64,000 nucleotides of DNA from Ignavibacterium sp. (GTDB lineage Bacteria; Bacteroidota; Ignavibacteria; Ignavibacteriales; Ignavibacteriaceae). Positions 37,565-42,956 of the stretch are shown one piece after another (position 1 is the stretch's first letter; every line of letters begins with the position of its first letter). Location of the stretch: positions 2,175,116 through 2,239,115 of the forward strand of contig JAVSMP010000001.1 of NCBI GenBank assembly GCA_032027145.1, in the 5' to 3' direction. The position numbers and the translations under genes were made by a program. The notes under the pieces were generated by a model. It did not search any database, was not told the origin of the DNA, and was given only the letters and a program-made list of their open reading frames with translations.

Positions 37565-39736
37565 ATGGCTATAGAAAATCCAAAATATCAGAAGATGCTT
37601 GATAACCTGATTAAGGTTAGTAAAAGAAATCTGTCTTCAGTTAATGAATCTTTACTAACTAAAGCATTTGAGCTGAGCCTTGAAGCCCATAAACATGATT
37701 TGCGTGCATCGGGTGAGCCTTATTTTACACATCCTTATGAAGTTGCAATGGTCGTTGCTGAAGAATTCCCGCTTGATGATGTTACAATTGTAAGTGCTTT
37801 GCTGCATGATGTTGTTGAAGATACCGAATATACTTCTGATTTTTTAAGAAGAGAATTTGGACAGGAAGTATTTGAAATTGTTGATGGCGTTACCAAGATA
37901 AGCGGAATTTTCAGAGGGCACGAAATAACCAAAGCAGAAAACTACCGTAAACTTTTACTTTCGATGGTTAAGGATGTCAGGGTTATTCTTGTAAAGTTTG
38001 CTGATAGACTTCATAATATGAGAACTCTTGAATTTGTTAATCCGGATAAACAAAGGAGAATTGCTCAGGAAACATTAGAGATATATGCTCCGTTTGCTCA
38101 TAGATTTGGTCTTGGAAAAGTTAAGTGGGAACTAGAAGATCTTGCATTCAAATATCTGAACAAAGAAGCTTATGAAGAACTTGCCCGAAAATTAAAATCC
38201 AAAAGAAAAGACCGTGAATCGTATATTAAAAAATTTGCTGAACCAATTAAGCAAAAACTAAATGAAGCAAATCTTAAATATGAATTAAGCGGAAGACCAA
38301 AGCACCTTTACAGCATCTACCGGAAAATGGTCAGAAGAAATAAACCATTTGAAGAAATCTATGACCTTTTTGCAATTAGAATAATTCTTGATACGAAGAA
38401 TAAGAATGATTGTTACACAACACTTGGTATTGTAAATTTGGTTTATCTTCCCGTTCCAGACCGGTTTAAAGATTATATTTCAATTCCAAAGACAAACAAC
38501 TATCAATCAATTCATACTACCGTTGTAGGACCTGTAGGCAGGTTAGTAGAAGTTCAGATAAGGACACAGGAAATGCATGAAGTTGCAGAAAAAGGAGTTG
38601 CAGCGCATTGGAGATACAAAGAAAATAAAACTGCTACTGATAATGAGCTTGAAACCTGGGTTAACTGGATACGAGACATTTTTGAAAATACCTCCAGAGA
38701 TGACCAGAGAAAAGAATTGATGGAAAGTTTCAAGTTAAATCTTTATCAGGATGAAATTTATGTTTTTACTCCAAAAGGTGATTTAAGAAGATTACCTGTC
38801 GGTTCAACTCCGGTAGATTTTGCATTTGATATTCACAGCAAGGTAGGATTTCATTGTATCGGTGCTAAAATTGATGGTAAAATAGTTCCACTTGATACAC
38901 AATTGCAGAGTGGTGATCAGGTTGAAATAATCAGTTCAAAAAATCAGCATCCGAATAAAAACTGGATTAAATTTGTAAAAACTCATAAAGCTAAAAATGA
39001 AATAAGAAAATGGTTAAATAAAGAGGAGCAGCTAATTGTTGATAAAGGAAGTGAAATCTGGGAAAAGAAATTAAAAAAGTTAAAGCTTACTTTTACACCC
39101 GATGATGTTCTTAAATTAGCTCACTCAAATAAATTTGATAATACGCGCCAGTTCTTTAAAGCGATTTCGCAGGGAACAATAAATATTGATGAAGTTCTAA
39201 CTGCAAGCTCACAAAAAGAAGAGAAAGAATTTGAGAAAGAAATTGAGTTTAAGAAATTAGCAAATACTTCACGAAGTGATATTGGCGGAATTTTAGTTGA
39301 TGGTAAAAAATCCGGGATTATGTACACTTATGCCAAATGCTGTAATCCAATTCCAGGTGATCCTGTAATCGGATACATTACCGTTGGAGAAGGAATAAAA
39401 ATCCATCGTAAGAATTGTGTAAACCTTATCAATCTTTCATCAACCGATGCGGATAAACTGGTTAATGTTCAGTGGCCAGAAGTCGAAGGGTCATTATTTG
39501 TTGCGGGTATTACGCTAAAGGGTAAGGATAGACCCGGAATCCTGAATGATATTTCACATTCTATCGTTACATTTCAAAATACAAATATCAAATCGCTAAA
39601 CATTAACACAAATGATTCTCTGTTTGAAGGAAGTGTTACTCTTTATGTAAGTAATCTGGATCATTTAAACAGAATAATGGAGAGATTAAAAAAAGTAACA
39701 GGTATTTATTCTATTGAAAGATTTGAATCTGCATGA
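37565..39736 (+). CDS. rel: Bifunctional (p)ppGpp synthetase/hydrolase
   Basis: This 723-residue RelA/SpoT homologue makes and degrades (p)ppGpp, the stringent-response signal. The HD hydrolase domain is intact (SALLHDVVEDTEY near 75). The synthetase domain has YDLFAIRI and NYQSIHTTV, and contains RFKD, the RxKD form typical of bifunctional enzymes (RelA-only enzymes have ExDD). TGS (IYVFTPKGDLRRLPVG), a zinc-finger-like region (YAKCCNPIPGD) and a C-terminal ACT domain follow. It overlaps ruvX by four bases (ATGA). The next genes in the run encode two BMC-domain proteins. Confidence 0.97.
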   Translation: MAIENPKYQKMLDNLIKVSKRNLSSVNESLLTKAFELSLEAHKHDLRASGEPYFTHPYEVAMVVAEEFPLDDVTIVSALLHDVVEDTEYTSDFLRREFGQEVFEIVDGVTKISGIFRGHEITKAENYRKLLLSMVKDVRVILVKFADRLHNMRTLEFVNPDKQRRIAQETLEIYAPFAHRFGLGKVKWELEDLAFKYLNKEAYEELARKLKSKRKDRESYIKKFAEPIKQKLNEANLKYELSGRPKHLYSIYRKMVRRNKPFEEIYDLFAIRIILDTKNKNDCYTTLGIVNLVYLPVPDRFKDYISIPKTNNYQSIHTTVVGPVGRLVEVQIRTQEMHEVAEKGVAAHWRYKENKTATDNELETWVNWIRDIFENTSRDDQRKELMESFKLNLYQDEIYVFTPKGDLRRLPVGSTPVDFAFDIHSKVGFHCIGAKIDGKIVPLDTQLQSGDQVEIISSKNQHPNKNWIKFVKTHKAKNEIRKWLNKEEQLIVDKGSEIWEKKLKKLKLTFTPDDVLKLAHSNKFDNTRQFFKAISQGTINIDEVLTASSQKEEKEFEKEIEFKKLANTSRSDIGGILVDGKKSGIMYTYAKCCNPIPGDPVIGYITVGEGIKIHRKNCVNLINLSSTDADKLVNVQWPEVEGSLFVAGITLKGKDRPGILNDISHSIVTFQNTNIKSLNINTNDSLFEGSVTLYVSNLDHLNRIMERLKKVTGIYSIERFESA

Positions 39737-40170
39737 GTTCTGTAATTACTGAGTCAAGAATTATGGCTGTTGATTTTGGTATTAAAAGAATCGGTATTGC
39801 ATTGTCCGATTCGTTAAAACTGTTTGCTTATCCACATGTTACTTTGGCAAATGATTCAAATTTTTTTAATGAGTTAAAAAAAATTGTAGAAGAAAAACAG
39901 GTTGAGGAAGTTGTTCTGGGCATTCCTGCAGAAAACAATGTATCAAAAACATCTGTGGTTAAAAATATTGAAAAGTTTAAAGAAGAGCTGAAGAACAAAA
40001 TTAAAGTAAAAATTATTTTATGGGATGAATCTTTTACTTCTTCAATTGCCCAGCAGAAAATACTGGAATCAGTTACTAAAAAGAAAAAAAGACAGAATAA
40101 AGGATTGATCGATATGTATGCTGCAGCAGTAATCCTGCAGGAATATCTGGATTCGATCAAAACCGTTTGA
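39733..40170 (+). CDS. ruvX: Putative Holliday junction resolvase RuvX/YqgF
   Basis: The 145-residue protein matches YqgF, an RNase-H-fold nuclease involved in 16S rRNA maturation and possibly junction resolution. The first catalytic Asp lies in AVDFGIKRIGIALSD, the glutamate region in VVLGIPAENN, and the DES motif in LWDESFTS, followed by the late Asp in GLIDMYAAAVILQ. It overlaps rel by four bases. The ATG at 39733 gives about 10 residues before the first strand. A weak terminator-like hairpin covers its stop codon. Confidence 0.93.
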   Translation: MSSVITESRIMAVDFGIKRIGIALSDSLKLFAYPHVTLANDSNFFNELKKIVEEKQVEEVVLGIPAENNVSKTSVVKNIEKFKEELKNKIKVKIILWDESFTSSIAQQKILESVTKKKKRQNKGLIDMYAAAVILQEYLDSIKTV

Positions 40171-40216: not shown

Positions 40217-40230
40217 GGAGCAAACAATTG
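40217..40230 (+). promoter_or_regulatory. Ribosome site supporting a TTG start
   Basis: GGAG at 40217-40220 lies 7 bases before TTG at 40228-40230. No ATG in the frame gives a complete BMC domain, so this site decides the start of the first BMC gene. Confidence 0.6.
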
Positions 40231-40506
40231 ATTGAAAAATCTCTCGGCATATTTGAAACTAATAGTATATCTGCATCAATAAAAGCCTTATCAGTTATTG
40301 TTAAGGAGAATTCTTTAGATATTATCAATAAGCAGGTTTTAGGTGATGGTATCGTAGCATTAGTTTTTACAGGTAATTTAGGAGCAATGAAGAAAGCTTT
40401 TAAAATCAGTGCGGAGCATTTAAGTGCTTCAAGTGAATTCAGGGCTTTTCACATTATTCCAATGCCGCATAAAAATTTACTTACTTTATTTGGTATCAGA
40501 GGTTAA
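40228..40506 (+). CDS. Bacterial microcompartment (BMC) shell-domain protein, single domain
   Basis: The 92-residue product is one BMC domain, the fold that builds hexameric shell tiles. SLGIFETNSISASIKALSV aligns with the family start GMIETKGLVAAIEAAD, VLGDGIVALVFTGNLGAMKKA with the pore loop and following helix, and FHIIPMPHKNLL with the closing VHVIPRPHxxL. The lysine at the hexamer edge (IVKEN) is kept, but the edge arginine of PRPH is Met here. The start is TTG with GGAG 7 bases upstream. A second BMC-domain gene follows 4 bases later. No microcompartment enzymes are encoded nearby. Confidence 0.85.
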   Translation: MIEKSLGIFETNSISASIKALSVIVKENSLDIINKQVLGDGIVALVFTGNLGAMKKAFKISAEHLSASSEFRAFHIIPMPHKNLLTLFGIRG

Positions 40507-40510
40507 AATT

Positions 40511-41380
40511 ATGTCCAATTCTTTCGGCTTAATTGAATCAAAAGGACTGGTTGCTTTAGTTGAAGCAGCAGATGTAATACTCAAAAACTCACCCGTTGAA
40601 ATTCTGGGTGTGCATAAATTAAATAACGGCTTAACTGCCTTAGCGGTAAGCGGTGATCAGGATTATGTTAATGCTGCTGTTGAATCTGCCGTTGAAGCCG
40701 GTAAAAGAGTTGGTGAAATAAATGCTTTTACAGTTATTGATCAGCCTCCCAAACAAGTAGTGAAAATATTTGGTGATCTGTTTTTAGTTTCTATGGAAAA
40801 TAATGATCTGATTTCTGATAGTAATGATGAATTAAACCTTAAAGCTAATAGAGTTTCCGCTCCTGAATTTGAAAAAGCTAAAATCGGGAATAATAAAGTA
40901 CAGGTTATTAAAAGAAGAGAAATTTCAAAAATATCCGTTAAAGCAGCTCATTCTGATAAAAAAGCTAAAAAAATATCTTCTGGAAAAATTATTCAGGAAA
41001 AGCCTGAAGTAAAAGATAATTTACAATCTTCAGAAAATATTTTTTTGCATAATGAATCTGAAAGCAATGGACATAAAAATGATTTGAATCTTTCTACAAT
41101 TGAACGCTTGAGAAAAGAAGCTTTAGGTGTTGCTGCAAAAAAAGTTTTTAATGAAAATACTACTACACTTGCTCCTGTTAAAAAGATAAAAGTAAAGAAT
41201 GATTCATTAAGATTGGAAAATCAAATAGTAGATTTTGAACTAATTGATACATTGAATGTACATAAACTTAGAAATTATGCTAGAAGATTTCCTGAATTTC
41301 CAATTAAAGGAAGGGAAATATCCAGAGCTAACAGAGATGAGCTTATGGAATATTTTAATAAAATAGATACTCTGCGATAA
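40511..41380 (+). CDS. BMC shell-domain protein with basic linker and Rho-N-like C-terminus
   Basis: Residues 1-90 of this 289-residue protein form a BMC domain. SFGLIESKGLVALVEAADVI and LNNGLTALAVSGDQDYVNAA are close to canonical shell proteins, and the edge lysine (ILKNS) is kept. The usual VIPRPH closes as VIDQPPKQ. Residues about 95-245 are a Lys/Ser/Glu-rich linker without predicted fold. Residues about 246-286 (HKLRNYARRFPEF, ISRANRDELMEYF) resemble the Rho N-terminal/SAP-like helical domain that binds nucleic acid. EutK, a BMC protein with a helix-turn-helix tail, is the nearest known parallel. The next gene starts at the base after its stop. Confidence 0.82.
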   Translation: MSNSFGLIESKGLVALVEAADVILKNSPVEILGVHKLNNGLTALAVSGDQDYVNAAVESAVEAGKRVGEINAFTVIDQPPKQVVKIFGDLFLVSMENNDLISDSNDELNLKANRVSAPEFEKAKIGNNKVQVIKRREISKISVKAAHSDKKAKKISSGKIIQEKPEVKDNLQSSENIFLHNESESNGHKNDLNLSTIERLRKEALGVAAKKVFNENTTTLAPVKKIKVKNDSLRLENQIVDFELIDTLNVHKLRNYARRFPEFPIKGREISRANRDELMEYFNKIDTLR

Positions 41381-42295
41381 GTGAAAAATAAAATTATCAT
41401 AATAATTGCTTCTGTACTGTTTTCGATTTCGATCTGGATATCAATAACATTATCCGAGCAGTTCTTTTCTTCAATTGATATGAATGTCAAAGTTGTAAAC
41501 CAGCCTAATGGTTACTCTTGCGGATATGTTAACCCTGAAACTGTTTCATTAAAGATTAAAGCAAAAGGATGGCAGTTACTTTCATTAAAGCTTAGCAGAG
41601 AAAATTATTTTTTAATTTCTGCTGATAATGACAGCGGATTAAGAAAAAAAGATCCGTTCAGCCAGATCAATGAAAACTCGTGGGTTAGTTCCGGCATAAA
41701 TATCATCGAGATATCTCCAAGAAATATAACCTACAATGTAGAGAAAGTTAAAGTTAAGAAAGTTAAGATTCAGCCTAATGTTAATATTACCTTTAGTGAA
41801 GGCTTTGGATTAGCTACCCCGATAAAAGTATATCCTGATTCAGTTTATGTAGCCGGACCTGGGAGTATTGTGGATACACTTACAGCTATTGAAACTGATC
41901 TGTTAGAATTAACTTCACTTGATAATCCTGCTAAAGTAATTGCTGATATTAAAGAGATCAGAGGCTTTCAGTTTGAAAGGAAAAATGTAGAACTGAATCT
42001 GGATGTGCAAAGGATTGTTGAAAAAGTATTCAGTGATATAAAAGTTGTAATCAATGATGTACCAAAAGATGGTCATATCCTGCTTATTCCAAATACAGTT
42101 GAATGCAGTTTAAGAGGCGGGATAAGTATCTTAGGAAAAATTAATAGTGATCAGATAATTGCATCTGTGTTTTACAGCCAGATTGTTTATGATACAACAG
42201 GAACTATCAAACCAAGAATTATAATTCCTGACAATACACAGCTTGTGTTTACAAAACCTGCCAGACTTAATTACATAATCAAGAAGTTTGAATAG
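41381..42295 (+). CDS. YbbR-like domain membrane protein
   Basis: The 304-residue protein starts with a membrane anchor (IIIIIASVLFSISIWISITL) and then has YbbR-type beta domains, with strand patterns such as PETVSLKIKAKGWQLLSL, PIKVYPDSVYVAGPGSIVDTL and LIPNTVECSLRGG. In firmicutes, YbbR (CdaR) regulates the diadenylate cyclase CdaA; no cyclase gene is visible here, so the role is open. The start is a GTG directly after the TAA of the BMC gene, with no gap. tmk follows after 37 bases. Confidence 0.85.
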   Translation: MKNKIIIIIASVLFSISIWISITLSEQFFSSIDMNVKVVNQPNGYSCGYVNPETVSLKIKAKGWQLLSLKLSRENYFLISADNDSGLRKKDPFSQINENSWVSSGINIIEISPRNITYNVEKVKVKKVKIQPNVNITFSEGFGLATPIKVYPDSVYVAGPGSIVDTLTAIETDLLELTSLDNPAKVIADIKEIRGFQFERKNVELNLDVQRIVEKVFSDIKVVINDVPKDGHILLIPNTVECSLRGGISILGKINSDQIIASVFYSQIVYDTTGTIKPRIIIPDNTQLVFTKPARLNYIIKKFE

Positions 42296-42332: not shown

Positions 42333-42956
42333 ATGTTTATCAGCTTTGAAGGGATAGATTTTAGCGGAAAATCAACACAGGTAAAATTATTAGAAAGCTA
42401 CCTTAAAAGCCAAAATAAAAAAGTTAAACTAATCCGCGAACCAGGCGGTACAGTAATATCTGAGAAAATAAGAAAAATTTTACTCGACAAAGAAAATAAT
42501 TCTATGGTTATAGAAACAGAAATTTTTCTCTTTTCTGCAAGCAGGGCACAATTAGTAAGAGAAATTATCAGACCTTGTCTTGAAGATGGGTATTATGTTA
42601 TCACAGATAGATTTCATGATTCTTCAACTGCCTATCAGGGATATGGAAGAGGTTTATCAGTTGAATCAATTGTTAAAATTAATAATCTTGCGATTGGCAA
42701 TACTGTTCCAGATATAACTTTTTTTATTGATATCCCAATCGAAGCAGCTGCTGAGCGAAAAGCCAAAATGTCAATGGCAGATCTTGACAGAATTGAAGTT
42801 TCTGAAGAGAAATTTTTTGAGCGAGTAAGAAATGGTTATCTTGAAATTGCTGAATCTGAAAAAAGATTCAGAGTTATTGATGGCACAAAGAGTATCAATG
42901 AAATTAATGAACTGATAATAAATGAAATAAATATTTTTGAAGGTGTTAATAAATGA
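42333..42956 (+). CDS. tmk: Thymidylate kinase
   Basis: Tmk phosphorylates dTMP to dTDP. The 207-residue protein has the P-loop FEGIDFSGKST at residues 4-14, the DRFHDSSTAYQGYGRG motif near 90 that binds dTMP, REPGGT near 36, and a lid region with AERKAKM. ATG at 42333 gives the standard N-terminus. Its stop codon overlaps the next start as ATGA, so it is coupled to the S41 protease gene. Confidence 0.96.
   Translation: MFISFEGIDFSGKSTQVKLLESYLKSQNKKVKLIREPGGTVISEKIRKILLDKENNSMVIETEIFLFSASRAQLVREIIRPCLEDGYYVITDRFHDSSTAYQGYGRGLSVESIVKINNLAIGNTVPDITFFIDIPIEAAAERKAKMSMADLDRIEVSEEKFFERVRNGYLEIAESEKRFRVIDGTKSINEINELIINEINIFEGVNK

Follow-up and report, generated by a model that had tools for sequence, protein, structure and literature searches.

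Making shells is the assumed purpose of microcompartment (BMC) tiles. In PduA, Lys26 and Arg79 dominate the contact between hexamers and Arg79 buries the most surface, and the R79A variant still forms sheets in E. coli (PMC4139245); the title of PDB entry 4p2s calls an Asn-Arg-Lys triad essential for shell assembly. EutK is a BMC-H protein with a C-terminal helix-turn-helix, for which a 2018 review gives no identified role in the passages on it (PMC5821096). In FRAG microcompartments, found in Ignavibacteriae among others, the shell genes lie at up to six places and include a BMC-P triplet (Sutter et al., 2021, PMC8217296). Papers given by PMC number are cited for excerpts of their text.

Here we describe two BMC genes, bmcA and bmcB, in the window, by which we mean the whole 64,000-nucleotide stretch of DNA analyzed. 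The first-pass annotation had left two interpretations, either satellite tiles of a locus elsewhere or a pair with a role other than enclosing enzymes, and this alternative was partly supported by our analysis. We favor the explanation that the pair is retained for a role, as scaffold or adaptor, that does not depend on a shell and is centered on the C-terminal domain of BmcB; we consider this likely.

The bmcA–bmcB locus and its gene products

Both reading frames are intact and lie on the + strand between ruvX (39733..40170, Pfam RuvX) and ybbR (41381..42295, Pfam YbbR), with rel (RelA/SpoT, 37565..39736) further upstream and tmk (42333..42956) downstream, the last two assigned by Pfam and synteny. 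bmcA runs from a TTG start at 40228 to its stop at 40506, as first annotated, encodes 92 amino acids and is preceded by a sequence read as Shine-Dalgarno-like, GGAG, at 40217..40220. bmcB (40511..41380, 289 amino acids) was taken to start at the ATG at 40511, a longer GTG open reading frame being set aside; the predicted ybbR start is the base right after the bmcB stop codon. The call of two BMC-domain products was borne out: BmcA scored 40.1 and BmcB 61.6 bits with Pfam BMC (PF00936, curated cut-off 24.5 bits), and each covers positions 1–75 of the 75 in the model. Pfam likewise confirmed the neighbors as RelA/SpoT, RuvX, YbbR, thymidylate kinase and S41 peptidase. Searching the 64 kb by tblastn with 14 shell proteins and enzymes (AldDH, EutB, EutC, PTA, alcohol dehydrogenase, BMC-P, BMC-T and BMC-H; E 1e-2) returned nothing but bmcA and bmcB themselves, so that the earlier statement that aldehyde dehydrogenase, lyase, BMC-P and BMC-T genes are missing holds, for these 64 kb only, as an eut operon lies elsewhere on the chromosome.

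BmcA and BmcB each have one full, single BMC domain and, with their same-place orthologues, are BMC-H-like tiles by sequence. For BmcB the BMC-H fold was also modeled: its BMC domain (approximately residues 1–86, 40511..40768; Pfam match 4–79) reached an AlphaFold2 pLDDT of 89–97 per block of ten over residues 1–80, and matched BMC-H chains in Foldseek. A long linker follows, with pLDDT below 62 except in a predicted helix (residues 196–205, 41096..41125) over the motif TIERLRKEALG, which is recurrent, not universal, in the alignment of BmcB orthologues. The protein ends in a predicted helical domain (approximately residues 242–289, 41234..41377), delimited by an alignment of 39 genomes (A1), the model and a profile; its blocks had a pLDDT of 88–97 in the full-length model, and modeled alone it formed a helix-loop-helix with a mean pLDDT of 93.3.

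Comparison of the C-terminal domain with Pfam, PDB sequences and Foldseek gave no convincing match, the best Foldseek hit of its model having a non-significant E of 5.7. By eye it resembles the helix-extension-helix of Rho/SAP, a candidate we rejected for Rho_N: Pfam Rho_N matched 2 of 39 members (best E 0.031), hhalign against Rho_N of relatives gave a probability of 0.2%, and Foldseek lent no support. SAP was covered by just the Pfam scan and the PDB profile search, with a SIZ1 chain at E 0.7. Other weak Pfam matches were MerR_1 (1/39, E 0.0035) and SAM_KIDINS220 (3/39, E 0.011). We also rejected the best result of the PDB profile search (E 0.16, short fumarase stretches), took a single VIA-align row against 10 chains (Z 2.2) as noise, and found no relation to the EutK-like C-terminus of the same genome (hhalign probability 0.4%).

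The surroundings of the pair are widely shared. We sampled 80 genomes of the family, named at this level from the record titles of relatives, and detected a BMC domain in 70, BMC-P in 58 and the C-terminal domain of BmcB in 62; most are drafts, in which an absence weighs less than in the window's genome (G000) or in G047. We read 40 stretches from 39 of them, 39 of which hold the locus, together with rel (35), ruvX (35), ybbR (36), tmk (33), S41 (33), upp (30) and a TPR gene (30), bearing out a conserved rel-ruvX-pair-ybbR-tmk context in most family stretches. ruvX was missing from four, one of which begins at a contig end; in G009, G073 and G075 both rel and ruvX are absent though the stretch extends upstream. 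ybbR was missing from three, two of which stop at a contig end; in the third, from G031, the gene is absent though the stretch extends downstream. G069 has an extra gene between ruvX and the pair.

ybbR is the most widely conserved neighbor of bmcB: of 53 stretches with at least 400 bases downstream, 50, from nine families, have it within 300 bases 3′ of bmcB and on the bmcB strand (exceptions G031, G081 and G192), and the adjacency stays while the outer genes differ. This may be plain slow rearrangement. The profile of the C-terminal domain matched once per genome in 61 of the 62 genomes and twice in G027. A single-motif scan of named genome contigs found 113 relatives, of which 80 were kept; their titles name Ignavibacteria, Melioribacter, Stygiobacter or unspecified genomes of Bacteroidetes or of bacteria, and Stygiobacter electus (L099) has the domain. 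The tile and the C-terminal domain of BmcB lie on different contigs in G042 (L086 1–660; G042:C262:3526–4029), where unrelated sequence follows the tile at the end of its contig, owing to either a linker insertion or an assembly break.

Pentamer genes and the eut operon

In shell-bearing relatives the remaining shell genes are scattered. A BMC-P pair lies beside rpoD and a deoB-like gene in 4/4 genomes read (L217, L220, L222 and L225), a single BMC-P beside a dprA-like gene in 3/3 read at that site (L218, L221 and L223), and a two-domain BMC-T elsewhere, adjoining a PduS-like gene, in 2/2; the stretches L226, L227, L229, L230 and L231 were left out. From this pattern, rather than from the published typing, we infer the FRAG type for these relatives. 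BmcA is nearly invariant among them, the protein of G060 being 90–98% identical to that of 9/9 genomes read from other families. Agreement in both sequence and place establishes bmcA and bmcB as orthologues of the hexamer-tile genes of this scattered, FRAG-like microcompartment, which is widespread in the class, and the titles of the nearest relatives point to Ignavibacteria. The pentamer genes have housekeeping surroundings, namely a sigma-70 factor and a phosphopentomutase DeoB-like metalloenzyme at one site and a DprA-like gene at the other (DeoB and DprA assigned by eye); having DeoB as a neighbor might point to a nucleoside or sugar-phosphate cargo of the FRAG-like microcompartment.

The pair of the window's genome thus matches the one in shell-bearing relatives in both orthology and synteny, and the BMC-P triplet that goes with scattered BMC-H genes is missing there: both FRAG-like BMC-P sites are empty, with the site neighbors present. 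Overall, 13 of the 62 family genomes with the C-terminal domain have no BMC-P. In 12 genomes without FRAG-like pentamers, the rpoD and deoB neighbors that flank BMC-P1 and BMC-P2 elsewhere were together on one stretch in 10, as were, again in 10, the transmembrane protein and dprA genes that flank BMC-P3; no intact BMC-P lay between the neighbors at either site in these stretches. The control genome G032 has all three BMC-P genes at both sites.

On a Rel tree of 43 genomes (a single protein, with f12 left out and G063 and G067 set aside as uncertain), absence of the FRAG-like pentamers takes seven changes, at least four of them forced by strongly supported branches, and the window's genus forms one pentamer-less clade with g11 and g19. 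The tree and the kept site neighbors together indicate that the pentamers were lost, not repeatedly gained. Loss of the pentamer genes is also the simplest reading for the window's genome, and a FRAG-like origin of the pair followed by loss of its pentamers seems to us very nearly certain. The same state, with pentamers gone and the pair kept, recurs in other lineages.

Several genomes keep the pair with no other shell gene above cut-off. G047, from a sister genus, is closed on one contig and 99% complete (completeness as computed by the tool), has no BMC-P, and its pair gives the only BMC matches above cut-off. Within the window's genus, G041 (99%) and G044 (84%) likewise keep the pair with no BMC-P and no other BMC match above cut-off. 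The pair is dispensable in the sister genera g11 and g19, where G046, G048 and G062 lack it altogether, and bmcA is missing from six pentamer-less genomes with one BMC gene each above cut-off (G010, G011, G078, G079, G285 and G336).

Among 391 sampled genomes of the class, at least 167 have the C-terminal domain and at least 165 have BMC-P; comparing the matches listed by hand, 153 genomes have both, 14 the domain without BMC-P and 12 BMC-P without the domain. The domain therefore normally accompanies a shell, with clear exceptions. One of the 14, G198 (f22, 70% complete), was set aside as probably a chance match (E 1.6e-4), as it has neither a neighbor from the window's genes nor the motif of the domain. 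Among the matches listed, five genomes of family f12 carry the domain and all five lack BMC-P; ybbR follows the bmcB-like gene in 3/3 with enough sequence. In three f12 genomes, G099, G159 and G186 (L197, L199 and L201 with L228), a bmcB-like gene with a clear C-terminal domain adjoins ybbR; that of G186 is split between two contigs, with one stretch of the protein present at the ends of both. The N-terminal part of the f12 proteins is probably a very degenerate BMC domain: it reached 21.3 bits with Pfam BMC in G186 (cut-off 24.5) and less in the others, and with our own profiles, scored with G159 left out, that of G099 was marginal, at 16.2 bits with the all-lineage profile where the best among 400 shuffles had 10.3, the shell-bearing profile giving nothing above shuffles.

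Three further observations concern other genomes. G069 is pentamer-less and its BmcA is still fairly canonical, maybe reflecting a recent shell loss; between its rpoD and deoB genes, 29 amino acids (L233 2795–2881; 45% identity, E 1e-2) might be a decayed pentamer remnant, a weak candidate that we did not retain, since three-frame translation gave no clear gene. Genus g6 (G012, G018, G021 and G024) has a second BMC type, in which several BMC-P genes and BMC-H genes lie in one cluster (e.g. G018:C12:283530–286768). The BMC-H genes of G045 (L059, C426), a 430-contig draft with no BMC-P, have alanine-rich products unlike the others; they look foreign by eye, possibly from a foreign contig, and were not counted as the shell of G045.

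The whole-genome search that the first-pass annotation had proposed did find a full BMC operon, but one that does not lack these tiles. The window's genome is one contig of 3.67 Mb, and at approximately 3.212–3.232 Mb, 1 Mb from bmcA and bmcB, it carries a complete eut operon with, by Pfam, EutA, EutB, EutC, EutQ, EutP, EutH and EutN as well as aldehyde dehydrogenase, phosphotransacetylase, cobalamin adenosyltransferase and Fe-alcohol dehydrogenase. Its BMC proteins are EutM-like (two), EutL-, EutS-, EutK- and PduT-like, subtypes named from size and order as Pfam assigns BMC only. The single BMC-P of the genome lies inside this operon. In G000, G040, G042 and G043, four of the six genomes of the genus and also among the 62 with the C-terminal domain, one BMC-P lies beside two BMC-H genes as in an eut operon, a context proven to be one in the window's genome. 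Within the operon, a ParA-family ATPase gene (L012 6351–7669; G000 C1 3.222–3.224 Mb) directly follows a BMC-H gene whose product has, by eye, a helix-turn-helix-like C-terminus; the two might act together in positioning the eut compartment.

The operon, complete with shell and enzymes, raises the question whether bmcA and bmcB are satellite tiles recruited into the eut microcompartment, tuning its shell, satellite loci being a known pattern (PMC8217296, PMC4207490). By Nei–Gojobori counts, with dS high, dN/dS in the eut-bearing part of the genus was 0.03–0.04 for the BmcB tile and 0.10–0.11 for bmcA, compared with 0.17 and 0.38 between G041 and G044, which are without BMC-P; the lower ratios leave room for co-option by the eut shell. 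Against this, hexamers, trimers and a pentamer are already encoded in the operon itself, the pair occupies the FRAG-like tile locus, and identity of the window tiles to the eut tiles (25–33%) does not exceed that to the FRAG-like ones (28–37%). Nor did we find the dependence on a main BMC locus expected of eut satellites, as G041, G044 and G047 keep the pair with no BMC-P or other BMC match above cut-off. We therefore regard recruitment by the eut shell as improbable. The earlier suggestion of satellite tiles serving a locus elsewhere thus fared poorly, and a role other than enclosing enzymes became the better supported one, with the correction that the pair is no lone oddity but orthologous to a FRAG-like hexamer pair.

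Divergence and constraint of the tiles

We compared sequence identity with 22 shell-bearing relatives as the reference (G009, G063 and G067 set aside). For BmcA, mean identity was 0.93 among the shell-bearing genomes, 0.39 for 12 pentamer-less ones (range 0.29–0.75) and 0.29 for the window; for the BmcB tile it was 0.71, 0.36 (14 pentamer-less genomes) and 0.38, respectively. The C-terminal domain of the same protein stayed close to its reference, at 0.63 among shell-bearing genomes, 0.59 for the 14 pentamer-less ones and 0.58 for the window. The divergence is uneven, BmcA of G069 and G023 still being 0.75 and 0.54 identical to those of shell-bearing genomes.

Residues at the hexamer edge changed as well. 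The window's tiles keep the edge Lys (K26 in BmcA, the Lys aligned with it in BmcB) and have lost the Arg of the PRPH motif (Met79 in BmcA, Gln at the aligned position of BmcB), just as first annotated. As a signal, the Arg loss is informative for BmcA only; the Gln of BmcB is common in shell-bearing relatives and marks nothing. In the BmcA alignment, whose columns follow PduA numbering at both Lys26 and Arg79, the Arg is absent from all 12 pentamer-less rows, where M, L, V, D, N or S replaces it, and present in all 25 others (A3, with G009, G063 and G067 placed among the shell-bearing rows). Arg79 is also kept in 9/9 further shell-bearing members of the class and in the pentamer-less G413, hence in 1 of 13 pentamer-less BmcA proteins overall. 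Lys26 is kept in 8 of the 12 pentamer-less rows.

These residues bear on the idea that the pair builds an open or pentamer-free assembly, such as a sheet, a tube or a leaky shell, around a cargo. Shells may not strictly need pentamers, and Lys26 is mostly retained. Sheets and tubes can arise from BMC-H proteins alone, PduA being an example, and the sheets of PduA R79A mean that loss of the Arg is no proof of lost tiling (PMC4139245); moreover, the majority of FRAG shell genes lie far from known enzymes (PMC8217296). However, Arg79 is lost from 12 of 13 pentamer-less BmcA proteins, G041 and G047 have no BMC-T or other tile above cut-off, and bmcA itself is missing in several lineages, all of which makes such an assembly hardly likely.

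By the same codon counts, dN/dS between pentamer-less genomes was 0.06–0.38 for bmcA (nine pairs), 0.03–0.18 for the BmcB tile (six of seven pairs, one being undefined by saturation), 0.04–0.21 for the C-terminal domain and 0.24–0.66 for the linker (seven pairs each); in seven shell-bearing control pairs, one with the uncertain G067, bmcA gave 0.007–0.05. The codons of bmcA and bmcB are, by these ratios, under purifying selection. Together with the identities, the ratios indicate that both genes look functional and that the tile lost a constraint that the C-terminal domain kept. That the pair consists of decaying relics of a lost organelle on the way to pseudogenes is thus very unlikely, in spite of the strong tile divergence after shell loss, the disappearance of bmcA or the whole pair from some relatives and the possible pentamer remnant of G069 (29 amino acids, E 1e-2), because the frames are open, dN/dS is below 1 in every defined pentamer-less comparison, conservation of the C-terminal domain is roughly at the level seen among shell-bearing genomes, and the pair is retained in three genera of one clade and the domain in f12.

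A proposed shell-independent role and comparison with known systems

A function retained outside a closed FRAG-like shell is, in our judgment, quite probable. The tile pair stayed at its locus after loss of the FRAG-like pentamers, and we propose that BmcB, with BmcA where present, would still form hexameric rings of the BMC type, without these closing a shell. Such a ring could serve as a multivalent scaffold showing up to six C-terminal helical domains to a partner; whether the retained function is that of a hexameric scaffold or adaptor we hold to be an even question. The leading candidate for the partner would be the genetically linked membrane protein YbbR, an assignment that we consider doubtful. 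Tentatively, and with somewhat less than even expectation, the tile fold may be a shell-free hexameric machine part tied to YbbR that had this function beside its shell role already in the ancestor. An ancestral second role would explain how a number of lineages came to lose the organelle while retaining bmcB.

The case for the shell-independent role is made by the repeated absence of pentamers with retained tiles, the empty sites, and the unequal constraint on the tile and tail parts of a single gene. Tiles kept under selection without pentamers suggest a job of their own, and a BMC match alone does not show that an organelle is formed. The role of extra C-terminal domains on BMC-H proteins also becomes testable where no shell confuses the result. 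A search among open-licence PMC papers brought up no recognized shell-free BMC pair and no follow-up on FRAG.

Among the closest described systems are the FRAG microcompartments, with BMC-H genes distant from the other shell genes, scattered loci and, in shell-bearing relatives, often three BMC-P genes (PMC8217296); the window's genome differs in having no FRAG-like BMC-P, its sites being empty, and in its diverged tiles. Satellite loci such as CcmK3/CcmK4 of beta-carboxysomes likewise place tile genes away from the main locus (PMC8217296), but satellites serve a main shell, whereas here relatives without a main shell keep the pair. EutK resembles BmcB in joining a BMC-H tile to a small helical C-terminal domain (PMC5821096); however, it belongs to a complete eut shell, and no relation was detected between the C-terminal domain of BmcB and the EutK-like protein encoded in the window's genome. 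Hexamers of the PduA, EutM and CmcC type share the fold of the BmcB tile, which matched BMC-H chains with Foldseek E values as low as 5.2e-9. In contrast to these, the tiling Arg is absent from both window tiles, the pore segment of BmcA is changed to Gly-Asp-Gly, and BmcB carries a long linker and an extra domain.
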